64,000 nt of DNA, taken from the NCBI GenBank assembly GCA_038503075.1, contig JBCAML010000001.1:1736001-1800000 (forward strand). Reading direction: 5' to 3'. Shown here in pieces: positions 456 through 53,100 of this stretch; positions within the stretch are counted from its first letter, which is position 1; every line of letters begins with the position of its first letter. A program made the translations under genes and the position numbers. The notes below the pieces were generated by a model. The model was not told the origin of the DNA and searched no databases. It was given only the letters and a program-made list of their open reading frames with translations. The DNA is from Gyromitra esculenta (Eukaryota; Ascomycota; Pezizomycetes; Pezizales; Discinaceae).

Positions 456-497
456 TGTTGCTTTGGCGTAGGAGGTGTAGATGAGGAAGCAACGTAA

Positions 498-5347: not shown

Positions 5348-8300
5348 GTAGCTCCCCCCTTCAAGCGTGAGCTCCTGCGAACACTAGGAGTAGCCAAGGT
5401 CGGGATAGTTAAAAACTCTTTTAGTGCCGAAGTATCTACGAGATCTTCAGCGGGTTCCCAGGTAGGGTGAGCATAGCCGGTCCATTCGACAAGGTACTGT
5501 TGTTGTCCACGATGTGTTCGTTGCTCGAGGATTTTCTCGATAAAATATTCCTCTTGCTGGTTAACGATGATTGGAGGTGGAGGGGGTAGAACTTGTCCTG
5601 GAAGAGGATCGTCGGCAGCGGGCTTAAGGAGTGACACGTGAAAAACAGGATGGTATTTGACTGAAGAAGGAAGATCAATCTCGTATGCAAAAGGGGAGAC
5701 TATCTTCTTTACTGGGTATGGTCCCATCCATTTCCAGTCGAGTTTTCGTGCATTGCGAACCGTCCTAATATTCTTCATTGATACGAATACTTGGTCATGG
5801 ACTTGATAGGCAGGAGCGGGAGTTCGATGTTTATTAATAGAGGTCTCCTGGATATCCTGGGCGGTCCGAATTTGTATCCTGAGGTAGTCGTATAGGTTTT
5901 GCATTGTGGTTGCGAAGTTAGAAGAGTCTAGGCTTTGGGCGATGGCGGTTGCGGGGACAATAGAGGTGTCGAAGCGGGGATGGTAACCATAGTTTGCAAA
6001 AAAGGGCGAAACTTTAGTAGTAGCCGATTCCTGGTTATTGGCTGAGAATTCTGCCATGGCTAGCCATTTGCTCCAGTCTCCTTGTTGATAGGATACGTAT
6101 GAGCGCAGGTATTGCTCCATGACTGCGTTTAGTCGTTCCGTCTGTCCATCGGTTTCCGGGTGGAATGCAGTAGACATTCGAGCCTGGATTCCTAAGCGCT
6201 TGCAGAGCTCCTTCCAGAAGTGGGCCGTAAACTGTGTGCCTCGGTCGGAGGTAATGTGCGTAGGTAGCCCGTGGAGTTTCCATACATGTCGAAGGTATAA
6301 ATCGGCAACATCTCTAGAATTGACCGTGGTATTACAAGGGATTAGATGGCGCATTTTTGATAGGCGGTCTACGATGACTAAGATAGCATCATAGCCTTCG
6401 GATTCTGGGAGGCCTGTAACAAAATCCATCGAGATCTCTTGCCAGGGGCGGTTCGGAATAGGCAACGGGCGGAGGACTCCTTGGGTACGTTGGGTAACTG
6501 GTTTGGCTTTTTGGCATATATGGCAGTTACGCACATAGCGGCCGATAGATTCCCTCATCTTTGGCCAGTAAAAACTTCTACTTATTAGTTCGAAGGTTTT
6601 ATCTCGTCCAGGGTGTCCTGCAGCGGGGGCGTCATGATGTCTCTGAATAAGCTCTAGGCGAAGAGGGTCAAAGTCGGGCACATAGAGTTTCTCCCGATAG
6701 CATAGTCGGTTATTTTCCTCCGTGCATTCACTTAAAGTGATCTCCTTTGATTGTTGATCCTTGTTTTTCAACGCTAAAAGTATCTTTGCTGGGAACTTGT
6801 CAGCGATATACCCTTCTAGGAAGAGTTTTTTCAGGGGGGCGTCCAGTTCAGCGGCTTCATTTGATAAAGAAGCCGACAACAAACTTATCTTAGGATCAAT
6901 GTTCTCCTTCTTTAGCACCACCTGGCTCTGGTGTGCTAACCGTTCATCCCCTTCCTTGGGGAGATCTCCTGATCTCCTTGTTAGAGCATCCGGCTTTCCT
7001 CCTTGACTTCCCGGTCTGTAGGTGATCACAAAATCAAAACGTGATAGGTATTCGGCCCATCTGGCTTGACGGCGGTTGAGTTGTTTAGTGCTCATAAAAT
7101 ACTCCAGGTTTTTATGATCACTGATAACATCGATCGGGTGTTTTGAGCCTTCCAGTTCCGGACGCCATTCTTCAAAGACTCGGATGATGGCAAGTAGTTC
7201 CTTGTCGTAAATTTCATAGTTACACTCCGCAGGTGAGTGTTTCTTTGAAAAGAAGGCTACGGGATGTAAGATTCCTGCATCGTCGTACTGAGACAGGACT
7301 CCTCCTGATACGAAGTCTGAAGCGTCGGTTTCCACAATGATTTTTTTGTCAGGATCAAAGTGGATGAGGATGGGAGCGGTAGTGAAGGCATATTTTAAAT
7401 TTTCGAAGGCGATGTCGGCTTCGACAGTCCATTCGAAGTTTATCCCCTTTCTTGTGAGTGCAGTAAGAGGCGACGCGAGTTTAGAAAATCCCAGGATAAA
7501 CCGACGGTAAAAGTTAGCAAATCCCAGGAATGCCTGGACGTCCTTAACGCTCTTTGGAGTCCCCCATTCTCTAACGGCCTTTAACTTTTCTTCGTCCATC
7601 TTAATGCCGTCAGGGGTGAGAATTAGGCCTAGATATTTGGTAGTTTGTACTTCGAACTCACATTTCTCCGGTTTCAGAAGGATGTTATTGTTCTTGAGTG
7701 TCTGTAGAACCTTCTGAACATGAGCTTGATGTTCGGTGAAGGTGTCACTGTAGATGAGAATGTCATCTAGGTATGCAGTACAAAAGATATCTAGGTATTC
7801 GGTGAGGCAGTCGTTTACAAAGCGTTGGAAGGTCCCTGGTGCATTGGTGAGTCCAAAGGGCATGACCTGGTATTCGTAGAGACCGTAACGGGTTCGGAAA
7901 GCGGTTTTCCACTCCTCTCCTTCGGCGATTCGGATCTGGTGATAGCCGTCGCGTAGGTCGAGCTTGGTGTACCATCGGGCCTTCGCTAATCTATCAAGGG
8001 TTTCTCGTATAAGAGGAGAGGTGTATCGATCTTTGACCGTAATGGCGTTTAGGCCTCTATAGTCAACACACAATCGGAGGGATCCATCCGCCTTTTTTAC
8101 GAAGAGTACAGGGGAGCCGGCAGGAGAGGAGCTGGCGCGAATAAAACCTTTCTCTAGGTTGTCCTCGATATATTTCTTGAGGACGATAAGTTCCTCTCTT
8201 GACATTCCATAGAGCGGTCCAAATGGTGCGTCCCCTCCATCAATTGTATTTTATGATCGTAGGGGCGGCGTGGCGGTAGTCCTTGTGCTTTTGCCTTATC

Positions 8301-9021
8301 CAACATGTCCAAAAAAACGTGATACTTAGCGGGGATCCTAGACTTCCATTCTTCTTTCGTAGTTTTGTTGTCTATGAGCTTGTTTATCTCGTAAAGGGAC
8401 ATGGCGTACGCTTGGTGGGTGCGTTTCCTAGTAAGGGTCCTAAAGCTGGCAGCGCCAATAAAGGACATATTCATTTTGGAGGGAGCGGGAATCGATGGGG
8501 AGATGACGATGGGGGAGTGAGGGGCACAGTGCGTGGTGCAGAGCTTAGAGTTAAACTCAATGCGTTTATTAGCGAAATGGAGGTGTACATCATGATGCTT
8601 CATCCACGGTATGCCTAGCACTAGGGGGTAGTGGCCCAGTTGGGTCACAAAGCAGGGTGCTTGTTCTCGGTGATTTTGGATGGATAGGTTGAGGTTAACG
8701 ATGTGGGTAATGTCTCCGGAGGCGACGGGTCGACCATCGATAACTTCAAGTTGTCCGGGTATTTCTAAGGGGTAAGGGGGAGAGAATGGTGACTCGCGAA
8801 TTTCTGATCAATGAATGCAAATCCTGAGGCCCCGGTGTCCAGTAAAGCGTGTGTGTTTATAATTTTATTACTATGGGAAATCTTGCATGCTACTACAAAG
8901 TGTTCCCCATCTAATTGATCCTCCACGCTTATACCAGAAACCGAAAACCCCGAAATAGAAAATGCAGACAAAGGTAAGAAATTTGAAACCAAGGTAGGGT
9001 CACTGATCGACCTTGGTTGGA
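5335..9021 (-). pseudogene. Element E: pol (protease, RT, RNase H, integrase, chromodomain) with frameshifts
   Basis: The pol frame is split into three pieces. The protease piece (8992-8765) has the aspartic protease box LLDTGASGFAFID. A middle piece (8648-8154) covers the protease-RT linker. The long piece (8205-5335, about 956 codons) carries RT ([10 protein letters not shown]), RNase H ([11 protein letters not shown]), integrase zinc finger, integrase core ([21 protein letters not shown]) and chromodomain ([15 protein letters not shown]). The breaks fall near 8770-8780 and 8205-8235 relative to F's intact frame, the second within KIQLMEG. The RT keeps PFGLTNAP. As it stands a full Gag-Pol cannot be made from this copy. 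Confidence 0.9.
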
Positions 9022-9031
9022 CTAGTTTAAA
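8987..9031 (-). promoter_or_regulatory. Element E: -1 ribosomal frameshift signal at the gag-pol junction
   Basis: On the minus strand the slippery heptamer T_TTA_AAC (9031-9025) is in the gag frame and is followed at once by the gag stop TAG (9024-9022). Slipping back one base opens the pol frame (CTA GTC CAA...). Six nt downstream is a 9 bp perfect stem, AACCAAGGT with ACCTTGGTT (9018-9010 and 8995-8987), enclosing a loop containing GATCAGTGACC. The same layout with a different stem sequence occurs in element F (13268-13311). Confidence 0.8.
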
Positions 9032-10309
9032 GCCTCGCTTGAGGCGTTTGCAGACTCTAGGGCAAAAAATTGAGGCGGGAGAGGTGGCGGCGGTAAGGAG
9101 GAAGCCGGGGGCGAACGGTTAGCAGGTGGGGCGGTGAGGGCTCCTCTCATCGTGGGTTTTTTGGGAGCAGAAGGGCAATTGGCGTAGGAGTGATCCGGGG
9201 CGGCACAGAACATGCATTTTCCAGTGGCACGGCGCCACTGTTTCTCTTCCTCCGAGAGCTTTCTTCGTCCGTTGACCATTGTGTATCGTTGGTCCTGAGG
9301 AGGGCGAGAAAGATTGCTGGTACGTCCGAAAGATAGGTCCATGGGGGCTAACCCTCCTGGGGTAAAGGAGGAGGCAGGGGTGAAGGCGGCGGGGGCACTG
9401 AATTGACCCATATTATCTCTGGCGTTTCCTCGTTTTTCTGCCTTACGGGCTCGGATACGATTATCCAGTCGGGTAAGGGTAAGAATCATCTCCGGGAGGT
9501 TAGCAGGGGCGATTGGGGCAAACACCATGGCTTCTTTTAACTCCTCTGACATGCCGTGTTCCAATGCGTCCATCTTCGAGTTCTCGTCAAAGTTTAACTG
9601 GCCCATGATTCTTTGGAAATCGGTAAGTAGGCGAGAAATCACGCTTTTCCTTGAGCTGGTGGAGTTCTCGTCGAGCAGTTCCAGTTGGGTCTGGGTCTCC
9701 AAAAGCAGTTTCCAAGGCGGCGATAAGTTCTTCTGCGTTGTTCCAAGTGGTGAGCCCTGAGGGGAGAACCGTGTGACGGACCTGTTCTAGGGCGGCTCCT
9801 TCCAGTCGATTGATAGTGTAAAGTATCATGGTGGTCTCATTGGCGAAACGGTCCCGGTTGACGGTCAACTTGGAGCGTAATTGGAGAATAAAGCCGGGGA
9901 GTTTTGCTCGGGATCCATCGAACTTTTCTGGGTCTGGCATGCGTTCCGATCGATGGGTATTTGACGGCGGGGGAGGGGTAGCTGTAAGGTTGGGTGGAGC
10001 GGGGGGCGCTTGGGTGGCGGATCGAGCCTCATTCCGTTCTTGTCGAAGTCGAGCAATTAGGCTGGCGGCTTCGGTGACCCGTTGGTCTTGTTCGGTCGCA
10101 TGACGGAGGGCATTATCGGTTTGGATCCGGGCAGTATTGAGTTTTACCTCGTTTTCCCGTTCGCTTTCCTGGAGGACGTCAATCTGGTCTTCCAGGGCTT
10201 GGTTTAATTCCCTGAGTTCATTGTATAATTCTGCAGGGTCGTCTCGGTAGGCCTGAGCGAACGCTTCTCTAGTGGGAAAGCGTTTTGCGGCGACGGCGGT
10301 TCCTTCCAT
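9022..10309 (-). pseudogene. Element E: gag, one frameshift
   Basis: This Gag starts at an ATG at 10309 (MEGTAVAAKRFPT) and reads through the coiled coil and capsid core to about 9640. There the frame shifts relative to F's Gag (RDFSAYLADFQRIMGQ is disrupted). The remainder continues in the next frame to the stop at 9022, including the zinc knuckle CMFCAAPDHSYANC (CX2CX4HX4C) and a Pro-rich C-terminus. The two frames overlap between 9587 and 9702. The end of gag overlaps the frameshift signal. Confidence 0.88.
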
Positions 10310-10371
10310 GGTGGAGGAGTGTCAGGTGTGCTTGGTAGTGGTAGAAGGTGTAGATGTCGGAAGCAACGTAA

Positions 10372-10822
10372 TCTCACGGTCGAGTCCCTCGTTAAGCCCT
10401 TCAGTATCCCTGAAGGTGAGCAGTGCTACTTAATGAGGTATCGACGCGTTCAAAGAGTGCAGCGTTTCTACAGGTTCTACGGCGGGTCTATCTCAAGGCG
10501 AGATAAATGCGGCGAGATGAACAGCGACAGCGAGGATTCTGAGATAGAATCGAGATAGTATTTCTTTTAACAAGTACCGAAGAAGTTAACGAGAACGTTG
10601 CTTAAGGAAAGAAAGAAACAGAAACAAGAGCGACCGAAATCCTTCCTTAAATACCCCGCTTTTCGGTAACACCGACAACAACCCGACAACAACCGAAATA
10701 CAAAGACATTATCCCAACAACCCTAAACATAACCAAACGACAAAGGAATTATACAACCATCCTGATCAATGATACAAATTACCAGTCAAACCATGAGACA
10801 TCCCTTACGTCAATCCGTGAAA
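10372..10822 (-). repeat. Element E: 5' LTR
   Basis: This 451 bp LTR is bounded by GATTC (10823-10827) on its outer side. On its inner side is a 62 nt leader (10310-10371) that holds the primer site ACGTTGCTT (minus strand, 10369-10361), two nt past the LTR end. The complementary AAGCAACGT lies inside this LTR (minus strand, 10603-10595), downstream of a TATA-like element. That supports self-primed reverse transcription of the Tf1 kind. Confidence 0.9.
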
Positions 10823-13311
10823 GATTCTCGCATCTTAGGCCAATAAAAGTTCCGGGCTAAGAGTTCAAAGGTTTTGTCGCGCCCGGGATGACCTGCCGCT
10901 GGGGTGTCATGGTGTCTTCGGATAAGTTCAAGTCGGAGAGAGTCAAGGTTGGGAACATAGAGACAATCGCGGTAGTGTAATAGGTTATTCTTATTACTGC
11001 ATTCGCTTAAGGTAATTTCCTTGGATTGCTGTTCTCTATTCTTTAATGCTGCGAGTATCTTTTCTGGGAACTTGTCAGTGATATATCCTTCTTGAAAGAG
11101 TTTAAAAAGGGGGGCGTCCAATTCGGCGGCTTCATTTGACAAAGAAGCCGACAACAAACTTATCTTGGGATCAATATTCTCCTTTTTTAATACCACTTGG
11201 CTTTGATGCGCCAATCTTTCATCCCCTTCCTTGGGGAGATCTCCTGATCTCCTTGTCAATGCGTCGGGCTTTCCTCCTTGAGTGCCTGGTCGATACGTAA
11301 TTACGAAATCGAAGCGAGAGAGGTATTCAGCCCATCGTGCTTGGCGGCGATTTAGCTGTTTGGTACTCATAAAATACTCAAGGTTTTTATGATCGCTGAT
11401 CACGTCGATGGGGTGCTTAGATCCTTCTAATTCGGGGCGCCATTCTTCGAAGACTCGGATGATTGCCAGCAGCTCCTTATCATAAATCTCGTAATTGCAT
11501 TCAGCGGGGGAATGTTTTTTTGAGAAAAAAGCTACTGGATGTAAGACGCCGTTATCGTCATATTGAGATAGGACTCCTCCTGATACAAAATCGGAGGCAT
11601 CCGTTTCTACGATGATCTTTTTATCGGGGTCAAAATGAATGAGGATAGGGGCAGTGGTAAAGGCATATTTGAGGTTCTCAAAAGCAATATCTGCCACAAC
11701 CGTCCATTCGAAGGTAATTCCCTTTTTTGTAAGTGCTGTAAGGGGGGAGGCGAGCTTGGAGAATCCTAGGATAAACCGACGGTAAAAGTTGGCGAAACCT
11801 AAGAAGGCTTGGACATCTTTAACGCTTCTTGGTGTTCCCCACTCTCGGACGGCTTTAAGCTTTTCCTCGTCCATCTTGATGCCATCGGGGGTGAGGATGA
11901 GACCCAAATACTTCGTGGTTTGTACCTCAAATTCGCATTTTTCTGGTTTCAACAGGATGTCATTGATCTTGAGTGTTTGGAGAACCTTTCGTACGTGGAT
12001 CTGATGTTCGGCGAAGGTATCGCTATAGATAAGGATATCATCCAGGTAAGCAGTACAGAAGATGTCAAGATATTCGGTAAGACAGTCGTTCACGAAGCGT
12101 TGGAACGTGCCGGGGGCGTTGGTCAGGCCGAATGGCATGACCTGATACTCGTATAGACCGTATCGGGTGCGGAAGGCTGTCTTCCATTCATCTCCCTCGG
12201 CAATGCGTACTTGGTGGTAACCGTCACGAAGGTCTAGCTTAGTATACCATTGTGCTTTTGCTAATCGATCGAGCGTTTCTCGGATGAGAGGAGAGGTATA
12301 TCGGTCCTTGACTGTGATAGCATTTAGGCCCCGATAGTCAACACATAATCGTAAAGAGCCATCAGCTTTTTTGACAAAGAGGACGGGGGATCCCGCAGGG
12401 GAAGAACTAGCACGGATAAACCCTTTCTCTAAATTGTCCTCAATATATTTTTTTAGGACAATGAGCTCTTCTCGGGACATTCTGTACAGCGGTCCAAACG
12501 GGGCGTCTTTTCCTTCTTGGAGCTGTATCCGATGGTCGTAAGATCGGCGAGGTGGTAGGCCTTGGGCTTTGGTTTTGTCAAACATGTCAAGAAAATCGTG
12601 ATATTCCATAGGGATACGTGATTTCCATTCCTCCTTGCTGGTTTTGTCGTCTATGATTTTATTGATCTCATAGAGGGACATGGCATATGCCTGGGAGGTT
12701 CGTTTTCTGGTGAGCGTTCTAAAGCTAGCGGCACCAATAAACGACATGTTTAGCCTAGAGGGAGCAGGTATCGAGGGCGTGGATACAACAGGGGAGTGAG
12801 GGGCGCAATGGGTGGTGCAGAGTTTAGAGTTAAACTCAATGCGTTTATCGGCGAAATGGAGTTGCACATCGTGATGATTCATCCATGGGATTCCGAGAAC
12901 TAGGGGGTAGTGTCCTAGTTGGGTGACAAAGCAAGGGAGGCGTTCCTGGTGTTGTTGAATAGACAGGTCGAGGTTAGCAATATGAGTAATATCTCCTGAG
13001 GCCACGGGACGGCCGTCGATAACCTCAAGTTGTCTTGCTATTTTTAGGGGAGAAAGAGGTAAAAAATGGTGACTCGCAAATTCTTTGTCAATGAAAGCGT
13101 ATCCGGAGGCGCCAGTGTCCAATAGTGCTTGGGTTTTGATAATTTTATTATTGTGGGAAATGCTACAAGAAATAACAAAATGTTCCCCATCCAACCCATC
13201 CTCCACGGACATATCCGACACTGAAAACCCCGAAATGGAAAACGCAGACAAAGGTAAAGAAAACGGAACCGAAGTTGGGTCACTGATCAACTTCGGTGAA
13301 ATTAGTTTAAA
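10823..13311 (-). pseudogene. Element F: pol, protease-RT-RNase H-integrase N-terminus, cut by E
   Basis: The pol frame is entered by -1 slippage at 13311-13305 and is open to 10823. The order is aspartic protease (LLDTGASGYAFID, about residues 60-75), linker, RT ([18 protein letters not shown]), RNase H ([11 protein letters not shown]), and integrase zinc finger ([12 protein letters not shown]...FYWPKMRES). There element E interrupts it. The apparent ending MRES-F-T-D-stop is created by three codons from E's LTR and is not a natural C-terminus. The integrase resumes at 4898. Confidence 0.9.
13268..13311 (-). promoter_or_regulatory. Element F: -1 ribosomal frameshift signal at the gag-pol junction
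   Basis: The minus strand reads GCT_TTA_AAC_TAA at the gag end, so the heptamer T_TTA_AAC (13311-13305) directly precedes the stop (13304-13302). The -1 frame (CTA ATT TCA CCG...) is pol. After a 7 nt spacer there is a perfect 10 bp stem, ACCGAAGTTG with CAACTTCGGT (13297-13288 and 13277-13268), around a 10 nt loop. Element E keeps the heptamer and loop but has a different paired stem, which is compensatory evidence for structure. Confidence 0.85.
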
Positions 13312-14621
13312 GCCTCCTCAGAGGCGCTGGATGATTCAAGAGCAAAAAACTGAGGAGGAAGAGGTGGTGGCGGCAGAGAAGAGGCGGGAGGCGTACGGTT
13401 GGCGGGGGGAGCGGTGAGAGCTCCTCTCATGGTGGGTTTTTTGGGGGCCGTCGGGCAGTTGGCATAGGAGTGGTCGGGAGCGGCACAGAACATACATTTT
13501 CCAGTGGAACGACGCCACTGTTTTTCTTCTTCAGAGAGCTTTCTTCGTCCATTGACCATTGTATATCGTTGGTCTTGAGGGGGACGAGAAAGGTTGTTGG
13601 TTCGTCCGAAGGATAGGTCCATGGGGGCTAGTCCTCCTGGAGTGAAGGAGGAGGCGGGAGTAAATGCGGCGGGAGCACTAAATTGGCCCATATTGTCTCG
13701 GGCGTTTCCCCGTTTCTCTGCCTTGCGAGCTCGGATACAGTTATCCAACCGAGTGAGGGTAAGGATCATTTCAGGGAGGTTACCGGGGGCGATTGGTGCG
13801 AATACCATGGCTTCCTTCAGCTCTTCCGACATTCCATGTTCTAGGGCGTCCATTTTCGAATTTTCATCGAAATTGAGTTGTCCCATGATACGTTGGAAGT
13901 CGGCTAAGTAAGCCGAGAAGTCTCGTTTGCCTTGACGGAGCTGATGTAATTCCCGTCGAGCGGTACCTGTGGGATCGGGGTCTCCGAAGGCTGTTTCCAG
14001 TGCGGCGATGAGGGCGGCGGTATTGGTCCAGGTGGTAAGGCCAGAGGGGAGTACACTGTGGCGAACTTGTTCTAGAGCTGCTCCTTCTAGGCGGTTGATG
14101 GCGTAAAGGATCATGGTATTTTCGTCTGCGAATCGGTCTCTGTTGACGGCCAGTTTAGAACGAAGTTGAAGAATGAAACCGGGGAGCTTGGCTCGGGACC
14201 CATCAAATTTCTCTGGGTCAGGCATGCGTTCAGAGCGTGAGGTATGGGCTCGTGGTGGGGTGGCGGCGAGGTTTGGTGGGGCTGGGGGGGCCTGATTGGC
14301 GACTCTGGCTTCGTTGCGTTCCTGGCGTAATCTGGCGATGAGGTCGGCGGCTTCAGTGACTCGTTGGTCCTGTTGCATGGCGTGTCGTGTTGCATTGTCC
14401 GCTTGGATTTTCGCCGTATTGAGCTTTATTTCCAGCTCTTGCATGCTCTCCTGAAGAGCGTCGACTTGATCTTCTAAAGCCTGATTGAGATCTCGGAGTT
14501 GATTATATAACTCTACAGGGTCGTCTCGGTATGCCTGAGCAAAGGCGTCTTTTGTGGGAAAGCGGGGGGTAGTGATAGCGGCTCCTTCAGAGGAGGAGGC
14601 AGCGGGGGCGGAAGTACTCAT
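13302..14621 (-). CDS. Element F: Gag (intact)
   Basis: This intact 439-residue Gag begins at the ATG at 14621. It has a Ser/Ala/Pro-rich N-terminus, a coiled coil at about residues 45-110 (LNQALEDQVDALQESMQELE), a Pro-rich linker, and a retrotransposon Gag capsid core from about residue 135 (MPDPEKFDGSRAKLPGF) to 280. A zinc knuckle CMFCAAPDHSYANC (CX2CX4HX4C) lies near residue 385, followed by a Pro-rich tail. Gag packages the element RNA in cytoplasmic particles. The stop codon sits directly behind the slippery heptamer used to make Gag-Pol. Confidence 0.92.
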   Translation of the reverse strand: MSTSAPAASSSEGAAITTPRFPTKDAFAQAYRDDPVELYNQLRDLNQALEDQVDALQESMQELEIKLNTAKIQADNATRHAMQQDQRVTEAADLIARLRQERNEARVANQAPPAPPNLAATPPRAHTSRSERMPDPEKFDGSRAKLPGFILQLRSKLAVNRDRFADENTMILYAINRLEGAALEQVRHSVLPSGLTTWTNTAALIAALETAFGDPDPTGTARRELHQLRQGKRDFSAYLADFQRIMGQLNFDENSKMDALEHGMSEELKEAMVFAPIAPGNLPEMILTLTRLDNCIRARKAEKRGNARDNMGQFSAPAAFTPASSFTPGGLAPMDLSFGRTNNLSRPPQDQRYTMVNGRRKLSEEEKQWRRSTGKCMFCAAPDHSYANCPTAPKKPTMRGALTAPPANRTPPASSLPPPPLPPQFFALESSSASEEALN

Positions 14622-14816
14622 GATCTAGGCTGATCACTCGGGAGGGAGTTGGTGCGTAAGTAATGTTGATCAAGCCACTCAGGAGTGACTTCGGTGAGAG
14701 TTTGGGGTCTTCGTGGGGTCAAGCAGGGAAAGATTTGGAGGATGGATTGGCGTATCCAACCGAGAATTTCCATGTAGGGGCGTCGTGTAGGAGGTGTAGA
14801 TGAGGAAGCAACGTAA
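14622..14816 (-). other. Element F: 5' leader with self-primer site
   Basis: This 195 nt untranslated leader lies between the 5' LTR and gag. It is longer than E's leader (62 nt) or G's (42 nt). The primer site ACGTTGCTT (minus strand, 14814-14806) lies two nt from the LTR and is complementary to AAGCAATGT (one mismatch) within the LTR at 15048-15040. The extra 130 or so nt (14640-14770) has no counterpart in E or G, and I do not recognise it. Confidence 0.7.
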
Positions 14817-15228
14817 TCTCACGGTTTGATCCCTTGTTAAGCCCTTCAGTATCCCTGAAGGTGAGCAGTGCTACTTAAACGAGGAGTCAAGCGACAAGAG
14901 TCACGATGTTTCTACAGGTCCTACGTGGGTCTAACTCAAGGCGAGTTAAGTGTGGGGGTTTCACAGCGACAGCGACCGCGAGGATTCTGGAGTAGAATCG
15001 AGGTAGTATTCGAAACAATACAGTAGAAGTAAGGTAAGAACATTGCTTAAGAAAAAGAGAAGAAAACCATGGCGACCGTCTAAAATCCATCCCTTATATA
15101 CCCCGCAATCCCTATCGTGACTCATAACTGAAACACAGCCGAACAACAAAGACATTATAAAGAAACTATCCTATGTTACAACCGTTACTTCCCGAACCCT
15201 AACCCATTACTTCACTTCATCCGTGAAA
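14817..15228 (-). repeat. Element F: 5' LTR
   Basis: This 412 bp LTR reads TCTCACGG...CCGTGAAA on the plus strand. It is closer to G's LTR (498-910) than to E's, for example in the aactc/gagtt hairpin and the tatata promoter region. Its outer flank is LINE L1 sequence (15229 onward). The LINE frame continues a few codons into the LTR before a stop at 15207, making an artificial tail. Confidence 0.88.
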
Positions 15229-16991
15229 AATAGGTGAGGTGTCGTGGTGGTAGGATACCCATAGTATGGGGGAGGGGGAGTGTATTCGTTCCAATCACTT
15301 TTAAGTTGGGATAGGATGGCTTGGTTGCATGATTCTAAGATCATTGGTTGATTTGGATTTGGTTTGTCGATGGCAGGGCCTGACGCGCCAGGGTAGTAGT
15401 TGCATGGGAGAAATTTCCATGCTTCGTGTGCAAGAGCGTCTATTACCAGATGGCGGACGTGTGATTTGGAGTTGGAGTTCCAGGGTCGAGGTCTACGAGG
15501 GCCCAGGCCCTTTAGGTGGCTTCGGAGAAGCGGTAGAGGAGAACCATTTGCTTGAAAGTTTGGTGGAAGGCAAGCAGATGCAGGGTTAAATAGCATGGGT
15601 AGAGTTGCAATGCGAACCGCATGGCGTCTTCTGAGGTATTTAGCATATGGGAGTGTAGGGGGAAGGGCCGCTTCTCGGGTGAGGGCGCCGATGTTTGTGG
15701 ATGAAAAGCAGTTGGTGATCCACCTGAGGACGTTGTTCCAAAAGGGGTCCAGTTTTTTTAAAATAGTTGAGGACGGAACAAGAATGTTCATTCCATATGT
15801 GAGTATAGGTCGGATGAGGCCCATAGCAAGCTTACGGGCATTGGAACTGGTGAGGCTAGAGCCCGACGTTGATAGAGATTTGATTGCGAAAAAGGCTTTC
15901 TGAGCTGATGCTAGTCTTTTGAGAAAGTGCGTATTTGTGTTAAAATTGTGGGAGAGCCAAAATCCCAGCCATCGGATGCATAGTTGTGGAGAAAAAGAAT
16001 TTCCAGCGAGTTGGATGGAAGCGCCTGGAGTGGGAGGGAGATGGTTGTGGATTGTAGTCCAGTGTATAAGTTCAGTTTTAGGAATTGAAAAGGAGACTTG
16101 GATAGCATCACCTATGATATTGATGTCATGGGCTGCTTTTTCCAATAGTCTGGCATTTTTCCTGCTGGAGTGCGAGAAGACCGTTATAGCAAAGTCGTCC
16201 ACATACGAAAATGTGAATTTATATGTATTGCTAAGGTGAAGGGGTGCGACGTAGATGCAAAATAAAAGTGGTGATATAGGAGATCCTTGGGGAACTCCTA
16301 CAGAAACAGGGAGGAATTTACAGGGCGATCCTTTAAAGAGGAGAGCGCATTCGCGCGAGTGAAGGAATGATATGATCCAAGAGGTCATGTAAAGTGGGAT
16401 GTTGTGGTTGAGAAGTCTCCTTTCCAGGATGTGGGGGTTGACATTATCGAACCCACCTTTAATATCTAAAAAAAGGGTGGAGTGTAAGACCGGTACTTCT
16501 TACCGCACAGGAAATCTCCAAGAAGCTTTAGATAACAATCTAGACGCTATAACCTGCCCGGTTGCTATCCGCAACACAATACACAGGCGCAAGTCCTAAC
16601 TGCTTCTTATGAACCGCTAAAAGATAACCGTAGGGTTCAAAGTAGGGATCGAGCAAAGTTCCGTGAAGAACTTCCAATAGTAAGGTTTTAATAACTAACG
16701 CTGAAGGGTCCTTGGCCCTATGTGTAGTTTGAATATCGCTTGCTTTGCTTGTTGGGTATCGTGTTCGTTCGAATATACTCTTCGTCTAACCAATCTGGAA
16801 GGACGAGGTCTGTTGTGGACGCGTCGTGACTTTGAGGTTCGTGTCGCATGAAGCAACAGCAAAGTCTCTTGAAGAAATAAAGGATTCTTTGCATGAAGAA
16901 AGTATTACTTTGAAGATGAAACGAACGCAGGACCTTGAGAGTATGAATGAAAGTCGTATACCGCTAAGCTATACAATATAATATTGATAAG

Positions 16992-17395
16992 TTTCATGGA
17001 TTGATTCAGGGATGAGTCGTGGTCGGGATGGTTGTACAATGTTGTTGTTGTTTGGTTAGGTTTTCGGGTTATGATAATAATGTCTTTGTATTTCGGTTGT
17101 TGTCGGGTTGTGGTTGGTACTATTGAAAAGCGGGGTATTTAAGGAAGGATTTTGGTTGTTTTCGTACTTCTTCTTCTTCTCTCCTTAAGCAACGTTCTCA
17201 GTTTACTTCTTCTGTATTGTTTCGAATACTACCTCGATTCTAACGAGAATCATGCCATTTGTCACTTATCTCACGCGAGATAGGCCTCGTAGAAGCTTGT
17301 AGAAACGTCGCGTACGCGAACGTGTTGTTTCACTCGTTTAAGTAGCTGCTCACCTTCGGGATCTTGAAGGGCTTAACGAGGACTCAACCGTGAGA
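16992..17395 (+). repeat. Gypsy solo LTR with 5 bp target duplication
   Basis: This 404 bp solo LTR of the same gypsy family runs TTTCATGG...CCGTGAGA, with ATAAG at 16987-16991 and again at 17396-17400. It holds the TATA-like region (gtatttaag) and AAGCAACGTT. It is the cleanest demonstration of the LTR boundaries of this family. It is formed by recombination between two LTRs of an element that had inserted in LTR X. Confidence 0.92.
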
Positions 17396-22082: not shown

Positions 22083-23394
22083 TATATAGCACTACTGTTG
22101 GGGTGCTTATTGCTATGTAGCACTGATTTAAACGCTCGGAGGTTGGTTATACGCTGGCTATGGAACACATGTACACGATATGCTCGGGGCAGGTTTGAAG
22201 AACCCGAAAAACGCAAGCAGGAGTTGGCTAATCAACCCAATAATGCGGCTAGGAAGAGCAAATCAAAGAAATCTACTAGTCAAAATTTTTTTTTCGGATT
22301 CTTCATACCTGCTCCGAGTATATTTGCTGTCTGGGATTTTTTTTAACATGGTAGTGGGCATTCAGACTCACCGTGTACAATACTTAGAATCGGACATAGC
22401 AAGGCGTGACTGCATTTTATGTAGGATATTTTGACCTCGGGACTTGCCATTCACCAATGCCGTTATATGCGTGCGCAGGATTTGAAAATCAGCAACTGGC
22501 CTGCATGCGCGCGACGCGCGCAATATACAGTATTGAGTGTGTATATTACAACTAGAACCTCCACTGGAACTCGAGGGCGGGTCATTAGGGTCACCGACTT
22601 GGGAGAAGCGGACCCACGGCTAGCTAGCGCTAGGAGATGTATTTATTTAGGGGGATAAATTCTTGGTGCTGTTTTCATGATAGATTCTATGGTCTCAAGG
22701 TTCACCATAAGTTTGTCGTAGCTTTGTGTGGGTTGTCTTAAACCATATGCATCTTATCCAAATCAGTGTGGAATTTTAAGCGATCCAGAATTTGGAGACC
22801 CTATACTAAGACCCGCTTATGTGCTAGAGTCATGTTATATCGTATCCTCATGCACGATAGCTGTTCTGGTGTTTCCTTGCTAGATGTGAGACCTGTGGGG
22901 GGTATGTACCTAAAGGGAAGAAAAAACAGTAGGGGGCCACATGACATGATTTGCGACAACGCAGACGAGTGGCAGATCTCAAGTCTCGGGAATGATATCT
23001 CCTCGATAACAAATTCGGACAGCCTGAAACCAAAAGAGAAAGTGGCGTGTTGATGCGTCAATAGAACTAGGACTGCAAAGCCTAAACAAAGCAGGGAGTC
23101 CTGAGGTTATTATGTTGGCCCTCTTGCTATGTTTCCAAGGTACAGCACTTAGGCTTGGGGTAAGCGATGATGGAGAAAGGCGGGGTTATCTATGTCCTGC
23201 TCCAAACATCTCCGGATCCTCAGGATATATGTACATGAGTTGATGAAATACTTTGAAACTTGTTAGTATAGAGTATTTGGGTAGAAATCTACAATTACAG
23301 GTTGGAAAGGCTTTCTATATTTGCCATTTCCTGCTTGAAACCACCAAAGGTATCTAGCCAAAGAAAATTAGTTTTAGCGTGTGAGCTAAAACTA
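22083..23394. other. Gene-free stretch
   Basis: Several short frames occur but none has convincing features. The longest plus-strand frame (22038-22346) starts inside the MITE arm. This region is the 3' flank of the methyltransferase gene that ends at 23395. Confidence 0.5.
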
Positions 23395-25315
23395 TCAACA
23401 TGAGCCTTCCTCACATCTACACTCGCATGCGCATGTACATTCACACGAACATGCACACTCACAGGCACATACACATGCACATCCAGCACATGTACATGCA
23501 CATTTATGGGGTTCCTGCACTTGTATCTCCCCCGAGAGCGGTTTCCTACCATAGACAAAGTATCTGTTTTAAACGTGGTAAGTAATTTTAGGTCATTGAT
23601 TTGATCACTGAAGACGTAGAATAGATAAAAGTAGCACTTACGCGTTGCAATAGAGTTCTGCTGGATTTTCAGAGAGATCTTTCTCGGCTGCTTCGCACAT
23701 CAATCGGATTCTCTGATCGGTCCATCCCTCTCTATTAGATAGGAGATGGTTGGCGAACGCGTGGAGACCATCCTTAAGTCCATGATAGGCCCATAAGCCG
23801 GCCCGTTTTGATATTTCGCTGTCCTTGAACCACGTGCCGATCGGCCAGGGCACGATTGTTTCCTTAATCTCAACAAATCTATATATTTTTATATCCTACT
23901 TAGCAAGGAGTTCGGCCAAGGATGGAGGGATAAAAGTTAGACCTACCCAACCCTCTTCATATCGCATTCAGCTCTTTTTGCATACTGGAGTGTGTGACCG
24001 GCTTTCCTGGCATGATATGTGACAAGATCCCACCAGAGTTTTAAAGCTCCAGTGGTCTTCTTGTCGTACTTGCAAGCACCCGAGCACACGCCTTTAGGTT
24101 CTTCATAGTTCTCGCAATCTGACGAGCAACCTTTATTTTTCTCTGGGTCTAGTTGGTACCTGCAAACACCCGCGCATTTCTCAAGTGTGGAGAGATCCGT
24201 TTCAACACCGCACTTGCAAACTTTAGAGGTACCGCCGAGTCTGCAATGATTCGTGCATAAAAAGGCATCGTAGTCTTGAAATTCAAGGTAACCTCCTGGC
24301 TTGAGATGTCTGTGCGAGAATAGGTAATAGTTAGTACGTTTTGCAGTTAGATATGTAAGCTTGCACATCTACGAAGAATCGTTCATGGCGAGAAAAAAGA
24401 TAGCTAGCATTGATACTATAATCCTAGGGGAGGCAGTAGGAAAAAGAAGAACTTACAAGAGGCATGTTTTGAGAAGCTTCGGCCAGTCCCTGATAGCTCC
24501 AGAAAGACAGCGGATATGGATGAAATCAAAATGATTCTGTTTGTATGTCCAAAGGCTCTCGATATCATCAACATCAAACACACAGTTGTCCGGAATCCTA
24601 GTACATCCAATCAGCCTCCACTGTCTTAGCTAATAAAAATTAGAATTATATACCATGGTGGTTGTATCTTGCTTAAATCATTTCCTATTACTTCTATAGT
24701 TGGATGATCTCTGTTGGATTAATTCAAATCAATAAATTGTCTCAATTGGCCCCGCACTACCCCTTGAGCTCCAATTCAAGTTCAAACTATTTTTCAGGTG
24801 AGGAGTACATACTCTGCTAACCCAATTGCCCAATTCCCATTGCCTGTCCCAAGATCTAAAACGCGAATAGGGTCATTCGGATCTCTCGGCACATCTAGCT
24901 CTAGGGGCACGCTAAAGAGCTTTCCACCATTTAGGAGACGGAAGGCACGATGGTAATAATCTAGTCGATTAATTTCCATCGTGTCGTTGGGCATCATGTA
25001 TTGGTTTGCGCGGTACGCTTGATAGCGACGACCATTGAGGTACTCGTGATGAAAAGCGCTAGAGTCGATAGTGGAGACACTCGAGCTCACTATTGAGGCA
25101 TTATCATCAATAAATGCATCCTTATCCTCCTCCAACTGTAGTGGAGAGCAAGGGAGGGTTAGTTAGCATAGCTAGTGATGGTAAAATATAGACATCTAAG
25201 TTCAAGGGAAGGAAGGGATAGGGAGAGAGTCATTGGGTATGTAAGGCGGGGAAGGTGCGGGGGAAACACTTGCATAGCTAAAGTCGTCCTCATTGTACAG
25301 ATCCTGATTAGCCAT
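23395..25315 (-). CDS. LaeA-like SAM methyltransferase with two cysteine-rich additions (spliced)
   Basis: This is a predicted S-adenosylmethionine-dependent methyltransferase of the fungal LaeA-like group, about 445 residues. Exons on the minus strand: 25315-about 25268 (uncertain; its donor is weak), 25135-24813, 24710-24654, 24597-24457, 24309-23947, 23878-23642, 23563-23395. All later introns are phase 2 with GT...AG ends. Motif I is VLDLGTGNGNWAI, followed by VIGNDLSKIQPPW, DFIHIRCLSGAI, LKPGGYLEFQDYD and the C-terminal YFVYGRKP typical of the family. Two additions are unusual. The first is a block of about 57 residues after EFQDYD with ten Cys, including four CX3C units (CTNHC, CAGVC, CSSDC, CSGAC). 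The second is a tail (23502-23398) with 16 Cys in its last 35 residues, mostly C-x-C. The paralogue at 28273-30357 lacks both. Target and function are unknown. Metal binding is an inference. Confidence 0.82.
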
Positions 25316-28272: not shown

Positions 28273-30357
28273 CTACTCCGTTGGAGGCGGGGGTTCTTCC
28301 TGAGTCCCTTCGGCGGCGGACGGCACTTTAACGCTTGGTTTTCTGCCGAAAACGAAATACCTACATCAATCATATTAGTCGGTAATCTTAAATCGGTGAT
28401 TCGTGCTAATGAATTTGGAAGTAAACGGAAAGAAAGTAGGATTTACCCTTTAGTGCATAACTGGAGACTCTCATCCTCGCTTTCTTTCTTGATATCGCTA
28501 GACCACTTTTGTACCTCTTCTGGTGTAAGGTCGGTTTTAAGAACGTTGATAAACGTGTTAAAACTATCTTGAAGCCCCGCTCCAGTCGAGGTCCCGATGT
28601 CTCTTTGACGTGGATCAGTCGGCCATGTTCCGATTGGCCAATCCTGAACACACGCTTCAACTTCAAATCTAGTTTCGCTCCCAATTAGTGAGCAAACCCG
28701 CGAAGTTGGGAGGTTTAAGCTCACCCTGCTTCTTTCATCAGGCGCTCTATATCGGCCGCGATTAAGAACGAGCGACCATTTGCCGTGCCACTATCGACAA
28801 CAAGGTCCCAAAACTTCTTCAAAGGAGATGTTTCTGCAGTTAGGTCTTTACCAGAAGCTGAGAATAATCTACAATCGTAGTCATGGAATTCAAAGTACCC
28901 CCCAGGTACGATGTTGCTATGCAGGCACAAATTATAGTCAGTTAACGAAATAATACGTAAGTCTTGATTGGGGCCTCGATATATTGTTTGCGTATTCCTC
29001 ACGCTGGTGGAGCTTCCCAAATGTAACCTATGCAACACATATGGTGCTTACACCTCGGATCGCTTTGGTAGCGGTTCAAGATCCTTAGAGTGTGATACAT
29101 AAAGGCTTCGAAGGGCGCAGGTAGCCCTGAGGATCGTAGCCATTAGATGGAATGTTGTTTGTGATCACTTCTACCATGAAATATCGGGTAGACAATTGAA
29201 AGCATTAAAACCACCAGCATAAGGGATAAAAGTGTAATCCTAAAAAAGGAATTTCACGACGAGATAGACACACCATGGACCGGAAGAACCTGGGGAAATA
29301 GAAGTAACCTACTCAAAACATCTCTTGAGAAGCGTTTCCCAATCCTTGATGGCGCCGCACAGACTACGGGCGTGGATGAAATCAAAATCAGTATTTTCTG
29401 GTGGCCACACGTCCTCGATATCGTCGACATCAAAAGAGCAGTTGGCCGGGATCCTATTACACTCTATCAACTCCACCACCAGTGAATGTAAAAAGTATGA
29501 AGAATTGCATACCACGGCGGTTGTATCCTGCTCAAATCGTTCCCAATTACCTTCGCGTTTGGAAACTCTCTATTCGTTCAACACCCAACATTAGCCTACA
29601 CTAACCACCCTAAACCATAGCACCATTCTAAGCTCGGGGAAATTTCCAAGCTTAGAATAGTTTCAGAGCGATGAGAAAAACATACTCAGCTATGTCGACA
29701 GCCCAATTCCCGTTGCCTGTCCCGAGGTCCAAAATCTTCGCTATGCCCGTTTCCAGTGGTGCCAGATGAAGCCTCAAATCAAGCAGAATGTAGAATATGT
29801 GGTGGTAAAGATCCAACCGTTTCAATTCATCAGCGTCGTTGGGCATTAGATAAGTACCTTCACGGTAAGCCTGGAAGCGGCGGCCATCCCTGTGGGCAAA
29901 TGAGAAATTATTGGAGTTGACTGTGGCGATAGAACCCCTTTTGATTGACGATAGATAATTAGTCAATCTCTTCCATTTCTATCTTTATGTTTTGGGAAAC
30001 AAAAGGTAATAAAAGGTTCCAGGCAAGAGAATAGTAATTAAATACATACGTATACGTTTCGATGATAGAATTGAAATCAGAGGATGTATCGATATCCTGT
30101 AGTCGTATCACGGTAGGGGACGAACCACAGCCGCACTAGTCAGCGCTGCTAACCCAAACATCACAATAGCAAAGTTTTATAAAATTTTAAGCTCGAGAAA
30201 CAGGGAGGGGTAGGAGGGGTAGAGGGGTGGGGTCACCAGCATCAAGTAATGGAGTTAGGAAAGGAGAATAAGCGAGAGAACTGTTGGGCATATGCGTGTA
30301 GCGCTAGAAGAACTGCTGGAGGGAAAAACCTACGCTGCTTGCATACGAATCATCCAT
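28273..30357 (-). CDS. LaeA-like SAM methyltransferase, paralogue (spliced)
   Basis: This is a predicted SAM-dependent methyltransferase of 363 residues. Exons on the minus strand: 30357-30334, 30135-30050, 29967-29686, 29569-29513, 29453-29313, 28916-28725, 28668-28447, 28360-28273, total 1092 nt with all phases consistent. Motifs: ILDLGTGNGNWAV (motif I), KVIGNDLSRIQPPW, DVDDIEDVWP, DFIHARSLCGAIKDW, VPGGYFEFHDYD, DWPIGTWPTDP and the terminal YFVFGRKP. Five intron positions and phases match the gene at 23395-25315, and two internal exons (57 and 141 nt) are identical in length, so the two are tandem duplicates. This copy has no Cys-rich insert or tail and ends in a Glu/Pro-rich stretch. The two N-terminal exons are the least certain. 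LaeA relatives act in nuclear regulation of secondary metabolism, but nothing here proves that role. Confidence 0.8.
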
Positions 30358-36622: not shown

Positions 36623-37448
36623 ATGGTTAGGGTATGTACATGCTTCACATACACCTCTCGTTAGCGCTAGATATTGTCTATGTCCTATGGAGCTCAGGCC
36701 TCACTACCCACTCAGCACCAAGTTCTCATAACAAATACTGGAAATCATGCACTTCAAACATATCCCCAGCTTCTACCTACACCCTCCTCATTAGCGCTTC
36801 ACAGTTATACTAACCATATACTCTCATTTAAAGAAGCCCTTGCGTGATGCCAACGGCGCATATCGCCGAAAGCTAGTGATAGTCGGTGATGGTGCCTGCG
36901 GAAAAACATGTCTTCTCATGCGCTTCACCAAAGACAAATTCGACCCTGAAGGCTACATCCCAACAGTCTTCGACAACTATGTCGCCGACGTAAGCCTATC
37001 CGACGGGCGTCGTGTCGAACTGGCCCTCTGGGATACGGCAGGACAGGAGGACTATGACCGTTTGCGACCATTGAGCTACCCCGATACAAACGTGGTGCTC
37101 ATTTGCATATCCGTCGATTCGCCAGACTCGTTGCAGAACGTGTATGAAAAATGGATCCAGGAGGTGAAACACTTCTGCAGTGTGCAGCCAATTGTGTTGG
37201 TTGGATGCAAGAAGGATCTAAGGGACGATGAAGTAACGAAGAGGAAGCTGTGGGAGAGCGCTGGGAGATATCCGTTGACGGAGGAGGATGGAAAGAACGC
37301 GGCGACGGAGTTGAATATGGATGCGTACTTGGAGTGTTCGGCAAAGACTGGAGAGGGTGTTAAAACTGTGTTTGAAGAGGCGACGAAAATCTCGTTAAAA
37401 CCATTGTATCACAAACGCCCCAGGCCCGGGGGATGTGTGGTTTTGTGA
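36623..37448 (+). CDS. Rho-family small GTPase, Rho1-like but divergent
   Basis: This is a membrane-anchored molecular switch of the Rho family, 207 residues. Exon 1 is only nine bases (ATG GTT AGG, 36623-36631), followed by a GTATGT donor. A TACTAAC branch point (36808-36814) and acceptor at 36833 lead into exon 2 (36834-37448). Nucleotide-binding motifs are complete: P-loop GDGACGKT (residues 21-28), switch I PTVFDNY with Thr47, [18 protein letters not shown] (from 70), GCKKDLR, and ECSAKTGEG. It ends in [11 protein letters not shown], a short basic region and a CAAX box predicted to be geranylgeranylated. Compared with fungal Rho1 it has one extra residue before switch I ([12 protein letters not shown]) and another in the following strand ([10 protein letters not shown]), so effector choice may differ. 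It is probably an additional Rho paralogue rather than the housekeeping Rho1. Confidence 0.9.
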
Positions 37449-38668
37449 AGTATGAGGGATGGGGATGGAGTTTGTTATTCAGAGGCGCTGATGTTATGGG
37501 TTTTCACTATCCGTTGTCGTATTTTGTTTTCCGTGTTTTTATATCGTATCCTCAGTCAATGAAAGAAAGAAAAAAGTGGGTAATTGTATTGCTTTCGTCA
37601 CACAATCTGAATGTTCTTAGGTAGCTATGGTTTGAAATTTTACCTCGAGATTTTTTTTTAAAAAAACCCTACAATTACTTGTACGTAAGTGGTCAAAAGC
37701 ACAACCCTTAAACCTGATGGCTTGGTTTGATACTGAGTGAGCTTAGACCCCGATAAAGACAGATCACACGGTGAGGCTTCCCCCCTCTGACTCTTCGGTG
37801 GCTCCCCCGCCGGAATTTCCCGTTTTTTGATTAGTGCCTTTCCTAGGCTCTGGTAGGTAACCACCAATACGCAGGTGTGCCTAACTTAGCCCTTGCTTCC
37901 ACAACAACCTATGATGAGATGGGGACCCCCAGTGCTAGACACAATATCAAAAGTGAGCTGCTTTCCGCTATTGCTCCCGTTTCCGCACATGTGATGGCTT
38001 TAACGGCAACTCACAGCCCACAAGTGACAAGTGGGATAAAATTCCCCGATACATCACGAAAAGATATTCCAACGCAAAGCTCTCACGAATACTGTGTGTC
38101 ACCGATAATAAATCTCAAGCACATTTTAGAGCGTCCTACTACCTATGTGAGTACACAGATTGAAGTGTGGCTGTCAAGTAAGGTTAGGTTTTTCTTGTTT
38201 CCTTTGTTCTAAGTCTTTTCTTCATCACAGCACACCAATACATCGCAGAGCAAGCGAAAAGACGGTACGAATCAATCACGATGATTGTTTCTACCATGTG
38301 TACCTAAAGTTGTAACTACTGATTGAGGCCTGGTTTTAGTCTTTAGTAAGCTTGTAAGTAATTTCACTTCATCGCTAATCACTCGCAGTATGACTTCCTC
38401 GCTGAATTTTTATCAGTACAAGTGAATATCCAAGAATCGAATGGTTGGGATATTTGGTTTAGGCAACCTTAGATCACTTGAGCTTGGTAAGTGGGTCAGA
38501 CACTACGATTGTGTAATCACCAAGAGCCTGTCTTTGTTCGTACCTGCTTTGTTCAGAACAAAGGCCGCGTCAATTAAAAGAGAGCAATAAACGGGTACAG
38601 TGCAACTCACCTCTAATATCACGCACTGTGATACCCTAAACTCCCTTTGCTTTCCCAAAAATCTACTC
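37449..38668. other. Intergenic between Rho GTPase and coiled-coil gene
   Basis: This holds the Rho 3' flank and the promoter side of the next gene. No gene or RNA structure is supported. A plus-strand frame at 37877-38212 has no recognisable feature. Confidence 0.5.
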
Positions 38669-41600
38669 ATGAGTTCCTCCGACGAAGATTCCAGGAAAAG
38701 CTCTAACGGAAGCTTTGATAGAAGCTCCGACGAGAGTTCGGATTTCAAGAGAGACCGCATAAACTGGGACCCCGATAAAGCCGTATTCACATTCCCTAGA
38801 ATGCCTTCTAACAAAAACGGGAAGAAAAAACGGGGAAACTCTCTGCCACCCTTACGCAGAAGCTCTCTGTTCTCAGGAGACTCGGACTCCATGGAGGAGC
38901 AACCGCCCACCCTCTCCCGAAAAAGAAAACGAGATACTAATATCAAATCGTTTCCACCTGTAGAATACCCCAGATTACCCTCCTCCCCAACTTACCGTAG
39001 CAGAAAATCGCAGCCCGCTTCGCCAAAGCCAGCGGAAGAGGACTCATTTCACGATCTGGTCGAAGAAAACAACGAACTGAGAGCCCGAATACAAGCGTCT
39101 GAGTATATTGAGAACCAATTCATCGAGGCTGCTTCGTCGATCGGCGAAGTCGCTTTTTCAAGCCCTTTCGAGGAATGCAATATCGAGCCTCTGCAGCGGA
39201 CATTAAGCAACATCAATCATCCCGCGGCAGAAGGATGCCTCGCTCTCCTCGAGAAACTCGCCGAGACGCGTGACCATTTCGCGCAGGCTCGGATCCGCGA
39301 AGCAGAACAACTTATCAGGATCGAAGAACTCGATGATGTTTCATATCAACTGGAGATCCTACAGAAGAAGATTGAGCTGCTTGAAGGAGAAAATAAGGAG
39401 CTCAAAAAAGACCTCGCGGACTCGAACTGGAAGTCTTTGAACAAGCCCACAAAGTTCAAAGAGAAAGCGCAAATCAAAACGTTGATAGGGGTGAACAGGA
39501 GGTTCAAGGAGATTCAAAGGAAAGACCGGGCGACTATCTCAAAATTGCGGTCGGATGTCGAGGGTTTGAAGGATGATAATCACCGCATAGAAAAGCAGAA
39601 AATTCAACTCAAGGAATCAGCGCAGAGCTACTTAACCGTTCTAGAACGATTTTATGAAAAACTTCGAAACAAAAAATCTACCGATGGATTAGGCTCCGAT
39701 CCTACCGGCGCCACCGAACGGCTTGAGAAGTATAACGCGGAGAATAAGAAAGCAGCTGTTGGTTTAGAAAAAGTGATGGATATGCTCAACAACAAAGACT
39801 TCGTTAGCACCTTTGGTTCATTATCTGCCGAAAATCCATATGACTTCCCCACCTTTAGCTCTTTCTCAACCAGTATTATGGTGTTTGCTGCGGGCGGTTT
39901 TAGGCCGGATGCACGTCTTGGGGACATTGAAGAAGAAGAATTGGAACCACCCTCAGTGGCAATAGACCTCAAAGATATCCCAGCAAACGATCCTTGCAGA
40001 ATCCCGAAAGAAGCACTCATCCGAATCCAAAAAGAATGGGGCGCGTACACGGAGGCTATGAACAAGAAATATGAGGCGGACAAGGAACAATACGAGAAAA
40101 AGGCCTCCTCTGAAGGAGCAATATTGAAGGCGGCAGGTCTTATAATGTCGGCAGATATGACGGTGATGCAAAAAGAAATCACAAGGCTGGAAGGAGAAAT
40201 CAAAGATATGCGCTCATGTGATGATGTCCGAGCAGAACTCCAGAGAATCGAGCAAAAAAATAGAGATTTAGAAAAGAAACTCAGTGAGCGCGCAGCTAAT
40301 CCACCAACTGGAGGGCAGGCCCCAACGGAAAATATCAAGAAGCTGCAAGACAAAATCACTGAACTGGAAGCACAGATCAAGGTTTTGCATTCATGTGACG
40401 ATATCAGGGAACAGCTCAAACGAGCTAAGAAAGAAAAGAGCGATCTGGAAAATAAGCTCGAGCTTGCCCAAAACACACCAGTTGATGGGGATTATCAGTC
40501 ACGGGTGGACAGGGCGTTGGAAAAACAGAGAATAAGATATGTGAGAAGAATTAATATCTTGCATAGAAGAAAGCAACAAGAAATGTTTTCGATCGATAAA
40601 CGGATTGGAAAGCTCAGAAACACCACGCTAGCAGATCTGTTAATACAAGACGGGCCACCGATTAAAGAATATAGCGATGCTTGGTTCGCGACGCAGTGGG
40701 AAATACTCTACGATAGGGTTGCTATACTCTGCAACATTAACTACTGCGGACGGGATGACCACATAGACTTCTTATACAGAGACACCGCAAACCGGGACGG
40801 CCTTCTTTCGTATTATCTACGAGATGTCGTTCTTTCGGAACGCTCTATGCATAACCGCATCAACGAGGTTACTACAACGTCTGGACAGTCCTACAGAGCG
40901 AGGGTAGCTACCGCAATAGTCTTTAGAATACTCGTCGAGGAAATATTTAATCCGATACGGTTCTTGGTGAATTTACAATTTCAGGAGCCTACCCAAACTT
41001 GGAGAAAAAAGCTACAACTCAGGAGAGCGTTTGAGACTTTTGGGAGGCCCAGGGCCGAATACAGACCGAGTTTCCAAGACCGATCAAGTTGGTATACAGC
41101 AAACGTAGAAAATAGAGAGGGATTCGAACGCCACGCGAGAAAACGAGCGACTGGCTTCAACTATATCAGAGAGATGGAGGACAAGAACTATGGCGAGGAT
41201 AACGACACAGGTAGGCCGATTCATGGATGAGTTTTATTCACTTTCTGTGCTAACCATTCCTACTAGACGCTCTCATTTTCAACACTGTGCGAGCCAAAAT
41301 GATATTGGCCATGTTTCAGAGCGTTGACGATGAAATACTGCATGTAAAATTTCAAGAACTTCGTAGCGATATCTCCATGCTTATTCGAGACACGCTCGCA
41401 CCCATACGCCTGCCTCGAGGGCAAGCTGGCTTCGGCCAACTTGAAGCTTGGGACGGACAATCTCTCAAATTCGCGGTTGAGGAAATACTCAAACTCGCCT
41501 TCAACATAGCTGTAACCATGAGAACTCAGCGCAGAATCATCTACGTCGACCTTGAAGGGCTAGAACTGATGGCTATGTTGCCTTTTAAAACGGATACTAT

Positions 41601-53098: not shown

Positions 53099-53100
53099 AT

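Follow-up and report, generated by a model that had tools for sequence, protein, structure and literature searches.

Our analysis of a stretch of 64,000 nucleotides from the genome of Gyromitra esculenta (assembly GCA_038503075.1, contig JBCAML010000001.1, positions 1,736,001 to 1,800,000 of the forward strand; hereafter the window) provides good support for a gene which encodes a LaeA-like methyltransferase and bears two cysteine-rich additions that are unseen in the relatives compared. One is located within the enzyme; the other forms a C-terminal tail consisting largely of C-x-C pairs. LaeA-like enzymes steer the secondary metabolism of fungi, and to our knowledge the signals sensed by most of them are unclear. 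Taken as a whole, the product may be a class I S-adenosylmethionine (SAM) methyltransferase of this type with a metal-holding cysteine insertion and a repeat-derived C-x-C tail, a reading that we favor, if with slightly less than even confidence.

Gene model and conserved enzyme core

The gene was modeled with seven predicted exons, all of which join in frame. The features referred to below are, in window coordinates:

25315-23395, minus strand: LaeA-like methyltransferase gene, seven predicted exons, 443 residues
25274..25315, minus strand: putative exon 1, start codon at 25315; the least certain exon, fitting by its frame and its acidic N-terminus
25273-25136, minus strand: intron 1, GC-AG with a GCAAGT donor (the remaining five modeled introns are GT-AG)
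24813..25135, minus strand: exon 2, bears SAM motif I (VLDLGTGNGNWA)
24654..24710, minus strand: exon 3, reads IGNDLSKIQP, a family motif
24457..24597, minus strand: exon 4
23947..24309, minus strand: exon 5, GGYLEFQDYD ... TTGALKLWWD; holds the cysteine-rich insertion
24057..24260, minus strand: internal cysteine-rich stretch within exon 5, 68 codons, 10 Cys, all TGC
23642..23878, minus strand: exon 6
23395..23563, minus strand: exon 7, YFVYGRKP, linker LSGEIQVQEPHK, cysteine tail and stop codon TGA
23398..23502, minus strand: C-x-C tail, 35 codons with 16 Cys; an imperfect TGTGCA array
23354..23462, minus strand: candidate extra intron, GTGAGT...TTGGCTAG, 109 nucleotides; prediction only
28273..29951, minus strand: neighboring paralogue, first matched exon to stop, without cysteine insertion or cysteine tail

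A preliminary description of this DNA had assigned the product to the LaeA-like methyltransferases, and this identity was borne out: the PF13489 (Methyltransf_23) profile scored 71.3 bits against the predicted protein (cut-off 27), which retains all 23 columns that are invariant in 50 homologues and 31 of the 38 that are conserved in at least 45 of them. When the whole protein was compared with Pfam at E 10, methyltransferase families only, and no metallothionein profile, were matched. The two highest-ranking matches in the protein search belong to Choiromyces and Terfezia, both members of the Pezizales. Judged from its sequence, the product thus appears to be an intact-looking LaeA-like methyltransferase whose catalytic core is conserved, an assignment which is well supported and concerns class membership only. 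Its 32 cysteines fall into six in the core, 10 in the internal stretch and 16 in the tail, the core number being inside the range of the totals of the homologues (median 3, maximum 8). The presence of two unlike cysteine-rich additions in a protein with an ordinary number of core cysteines favors a shared reason for both.

The internal cysteine-rich insertion

The internal stretch had gone unnoticed in the preliminary description. Its ten cysteines are separated by 3, 8, 1, 11, 3, 11, 3, 9 and 3 residues, which yields four CX3C pairs and one CxC pair. The loop reaching from the GG of GGYLEFQDYD to a conserved GF comprises 116 residues with 11 cysteines. For comparison of loops and tails the best 120 of 278 scored homologues were used; in 118 of these the same loop spans 56-61 residues, in the other two 21 and 36, and it never holds more than four cysteines, leaving an excess of about 58 residues in the target. 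A comparable cysteine insertion or cysteine tail was found in none of the 120 homologues. In class I methyltransferases, the loop following β-strand 5 lies on the side of the cofactor and the substrate.

Within the insertion a piece of 21 nucleotides occurs twice, with 18 of 21 positions alike and the cysteine codons unchanged (CAGVCRY/CSGACKY), a likeness that was equalled in only 3 of 5000 codon shuffles. The share of guanine and cytosine at third codon positions is 0.51 in the insertion, compared to 0.47 in exon 2 and 0.23 in the tail. This ordinary value, along with the exclusive use of TGC for all ten cysteines as opposed to 14 TGT and two TGC codons in the tail, suggests that the two additions are of different make. 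The possibility of a retained intron was considered and rejected, as none of the best 12 among 149 scored in-frame GT/GC-AG pairs removes the insertion cleanly. A search for relatives among about 5.8 billion proteins, limited to those of 0.55-1.75 times the 443 residues of the query so that small stand-alone proteins could not appear, returned three word-sharing candidates, none of which scored at E up to 10. Likewise, there was no match to PDB sequences at E up to 10, and 22 matches to the cysteine pattern in prokaryote genomes included no relative.

The C-terminal C-x-C tail

The preliminary description had also reported that exon 7 remains open beyond the terminal motif YFVYGRKP. This was confirmed: 35 residues follow at 23502-23398, among them 16 cysteines (14 TGT, two TGC) which are mostly arranged as C-x-C. 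Accordingly, the tail consists of 46% cysteine and is devoid of F, W, Y and H. Its frame is anchored by the terminal motif within the same exon, the K and P of GRKP being at least 90% conserved among 50 homologues. The splice leading into exon 7 had been described as canonical and as matching that of the paralogue. The former applies (GTAAGT...AAACAG, intron 23641-23564, phase 2), and the final intron of the neighboring paralogue agrees with it in position and phase (KG|YFVFGRKP), but the letters of its sites, read by eye as GTAAAT...TGTAG, differ.

At the level of DNA, the tail was recognized by Tandem Repeats Finder as an array of period 6 with 13.5 copies and 68% match and is, thus, microsatellite-like. 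It holds 13 C-x-C pairs, whereas the next highest numbers in the 142,324 bases compared are nine, in a microsatellite at the paralogue locus L014, and three, which argues that the array is not a product of chance composition. Alignment of its 15 units to TGTGCA revealed 0, 0, 2, 4, 6 and 6 changes at the six positions, 18 in total, of which two are synonymous changes in cysteine codons. No cysteine codon is lost against 16 spacer changes, and no frameshift occurs over 105 nucleotides; under simulated even drift, the cysteines of all 15 units were retained in 0.06% of the runs when 17 changes were applied and in 0.4% when 12 were applied. The tails of the 120 homologues after the terminal motif have a median length of three residues, with the longest comprising 20, 26, 31, 63 and 212, and never contain more than one cysteine. 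The predicted RNA structure of the last exon is unexceptional (z -1.45; 18 of 200 shuffles equally good).

Proposed origin and role of the cysteine-rich additions

We propose that both cysteine-rich additions were gained after the split from the relatives compared. The loop after β-strand 5 would have received about 58 inserted residues, with ten cysteines in CX3C and CxC pairs. This insertion would most likely depend for its folding on a metal, either Zn(II) or a different thiophilic ion, bound by its thiolates; with the metal in place it would form a lid on the enzyme or a module for docking. Of the uses that ten mostly paired cysteines might have in an enzyme of this family, the holding of a thiophilic metal is, in our view, the likeliest. 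The C-terminal tail, by comparison, would have arisen when a TGTGCA repeat adjoining the stop codon expanded, and a repeat-derived addition of cysteines is the origin that its sequence leads us to favor. It is the internal insertion rather than the tail that provides the stronger hint of a cysteine-based function; the tail may or may not bind metal or even be translated at full length. If the proposal holds true, thiol modules within a LaeA-like enzyme would connect methylation to metal or redox state in a way that can be tested directly. In addition, the gene may illustrate two origins of cysteine-rich modules, by insertion or duplication and by repeat expansion.

Several findings weigh against this proposal. 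The search turned up no close orthologue, the highest identity among 19 aligned homologues being 44%. The insertion matched no Pfam family, including no small Tim profile, at E up to 10, a level at which the HMMER filters drop most weak matches, and the last exon matched none at E 0.1. Four CX3C pairs are only mildly unusual for the composition of the insertion (1847 of 100,000 shuffles), and its AlphaFold confidence is low, with block means of 40-50, as would be expected for a stretch without homologues. Splicing of 23462-23354 would leave six tail cysteines and the end YTFGGFKQEMANIESLSNL. Finally, the single control array available (L014, 2956-2859; n=1) displays 0, 13 and 12 changes per position. 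This imperfect array of TGC-type triplets lies upstream of the ATG of a paralogue, within the 5' leader, and is presumably untranslated; nevertheless, one of its frames is as rich in cysteine as the tail (16 per 36 residues). Since it is equally uneven, repeat arrays may look constrained without coding.

Alternative explanations

The degrees of confidence assigned to our proposal and to its rivals are not mutually exclusive. The tail might be a functionless microsatellite read in a cysteine frame at a tolerant, variable C-terminus, an explanation which is compatible with an insertion-based function and has a serious, though not quite even, chance of being correct. The period-6 array, the equally uneven and cysteine-rich L014 control and the variable homologue tails after GRKP (median three and up to 212 residues) are in line with this explanation, while the complete retention of cysteine codons against 16 spacer and two synonymous changes, its rarity under simulated drift and the unbroken frame over 105 nucleotides argue against it. 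In the preliminary description the conservation of the cysteine codons next to varying spacers had been taken to speak against drift; the pattern is indeed present and no cysteine is lost, but the conclusion is weakened both by the control array and by the candidate intron.

This candidate, 23462-23354, would as a last intron take out the latter half of the array and give the end CACTCAGCACVCA-YTFGGFKQEMANIESLSNL with six tail cysteines, or alternative splicing might yield both forms. It is compatible with the other readings, and we consider it quite possible, albeit doubtful. The candidate intron combines a GTGAGT donor, a length of 109 nucleotides, a branch-like CTAAT site and a pyrimidine-rich CTAG acceptor; its pyrimidine share is 0.83 as compared to at most 0.75 in the six introns of the gene itself, and by these marks it ranks slightly above the best of them. 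The combination is rare: on the minus strand of the window, only one of 27 GTRAGT donors has a passing acceptor within 45-200 nucleotides, by its marks the candidate itself, and on the other strand one of 31. Moreover, three weaker donors inside the array lead to the same acceptor at 23354. The marks are, however, a home-made score and a rough guide, as none of the six modeled introns of the target passes the strict acceptor marks in full. Also at odds with an intron, the nine cysteine units from the donor at 23462 onward keep every cysteine codon, and comparison of the 19-residue spliced end with the homologue tails gave nothing convincing, with one weak match elsewhere (E 0.087). At least the first six tail cysteines are probably translated.

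More far-reaching roles of the cysteines appear improbable. A metal- or redox-gated enzyme is conceivable in which Cu(I), Zn or another soft metal or metalloid is bound both by the insertion near the active-site face and by the tail. Such binding would switch methyl transfer or divert it, perhaps to cysteine thiols, and the length of the tail would depend on alternative splicing of 23462-23354; we regard such gating as unlikely, and cysteine-directed methylation as a long shot. Similarly, the additions might serve thiol-bound substrates by methylation of a metalloid or thiol held by the protein's own cysteines, or of these cysteines themselves. This is very unlikely to be the case, as many N- and O-methyltransferases appear among the structural neighbors at similar Z, a cysteine after strand 4 is unremarkable, and no metalloid family turned up in the scanned open frames of the window, 20 out of 40. 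Lastly, the gene might be decaying and both additions tolerated debris of a dead copy. The GC-AG type of the modeled first intron, the adjoining paralogue and the reverse-transcriptase elements elsewhere in the window (0.9-16.5 kb and 53-56.5 kb) would be consistent with decay; the retention of all 23 invariant core positions and the seven exons joining in frame render it improbable.

Paralogues and surroundings of the gene

The neighboring paralogue has a short loop, CRLFSASGKDLTAETSPLKKFWD, and terminates with SVKVPSAAEGTQEEPPPPTE after the terminal motif. Its apparent intron 29312-28917 spans about 396 nucleotides, as read by eye, compared to 147 in the target, and may hide an exon or an insertion. 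The last-exon ends of five paralogues other than the target lack cysteine: LNAW (L005), EEEDD (L009), SVKVPSAAEGTQEEPPPPTE (the paralogue in the window), EVAE (L015) and LKE (L025). Ends were read where the terminal motif was found, with one L005 match in a wrong frame set aside; the remaining paralogue loci showed no such motif. Searches of the genome (47,100,447 bases in 23 contigs) with the tail and the insertion returned only themselves. The tail search also missed the cysteine-rich frame at L014 and is, thus, insensitive to other cysteine arrays. That frame was considered as a second cysteine-array gene and dismissed, being a microsatellite upstream of the ATG. A search of the protein database with the tail gave no candidate, a weak result since protein P0002, which shares FVYGR, VYGRK and YGRKP, was not recovered. 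For metallothionein genes the single family searched, PF12809, gave no match at E up to 1, which is a weak test as controls were found in one of 14 genomes and none above the cut-off.

Elsewhere in the window, positions 1-17000 harbor several retroelements of the Ty3/gypsy type with reverse transcriptase, RNase H, integrase and chromodomain, in direct and inverted repeats and possibly nested. A frame resembling long interspersed nuclear elements (LINE-like), which joins endonuclease and reverse transcriptase, is located at 53077-56523, and the skew between guanine and cytosine is strong at 52-56 kb. The frame immediately preceding it (51485-53095) and an open frame of 879 codons at 38591-41227 have no Pfam match; a further frame at 36795-37445 belongs to the Ras family. 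Of the 40 listed open frames with 110 or more codons, 20 were scanned and revealed no metal-handling family, a search that intron-rich genes can escape. Rfam at gathering scores and ARAGORN with bacterial settings found nothing in the window.

Comparison with known systems

The target has the catalytic core and the terminal YGRKP motif of the LaeA-like methyltransferases (Llm; PF13489) and differs from them by its cysteine-rich insertion and tail, to which none of the 120 homologues has a counterpart. PMC13006574 gives nine Llm proteins for A. nidulans and 11 candidates for P. oxalicum. ArsM and AS3MT were not among the matches listed (best 50 of 1858 in one search, eight rows at E 1e-8 in another, and 50 structural entries), which does not exclude a relation. 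These enzymes adopt a class I fold, and AS3MT has, we presume, a cysteine after the fourth strand; the target has one as well, as do 12 of 104 readable homologues, so that this residue is not special. According to PMC9013690, AS3MT and ArsM are SAM methyltransferases which depend on cysteine thiolates, AS3MT automethylates its own cysteines, and LaeA has been reported to automethylate methionine. The five essential cysteines described there are single conserved residues, in contrast to the cysteine-rich insertion and tail of the target.

With its C-x-C pairs the tail is similar to the fungal copper metallothioneins of the Neurospora, Cryptococcus and Tremella types. Metallothioneins are characterized by at least about 20-30% cysteine in C-x-C motifs and by the lack of aromatic residues; the tail alone, with cysteine at 16 of 35 positions and no F, W, Y or H, has both properties, but the predicted protein of 443 residues with an enzyme domain is not a small stand-alone protein. 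As for the insertion, its CX3C-X11-CX3C portion resembles the cysteine spacing of small Tims, which have twin CX3C motifs, and of A20-type zinc fingers. In the Tremella metallothionein, as described in PMC4755600, 48 of 57 cysteines are part of CXC motifs, and growth by modular amplification is thought to have occurred. The metallothioneins presented there are stand-alone proteins built of units such as CXCX3CSCPPGXCXCAXCP (PMC4755600), whereas the predicted tail of the target is a nearly uninterrupted C-x run fused to an enzyme.
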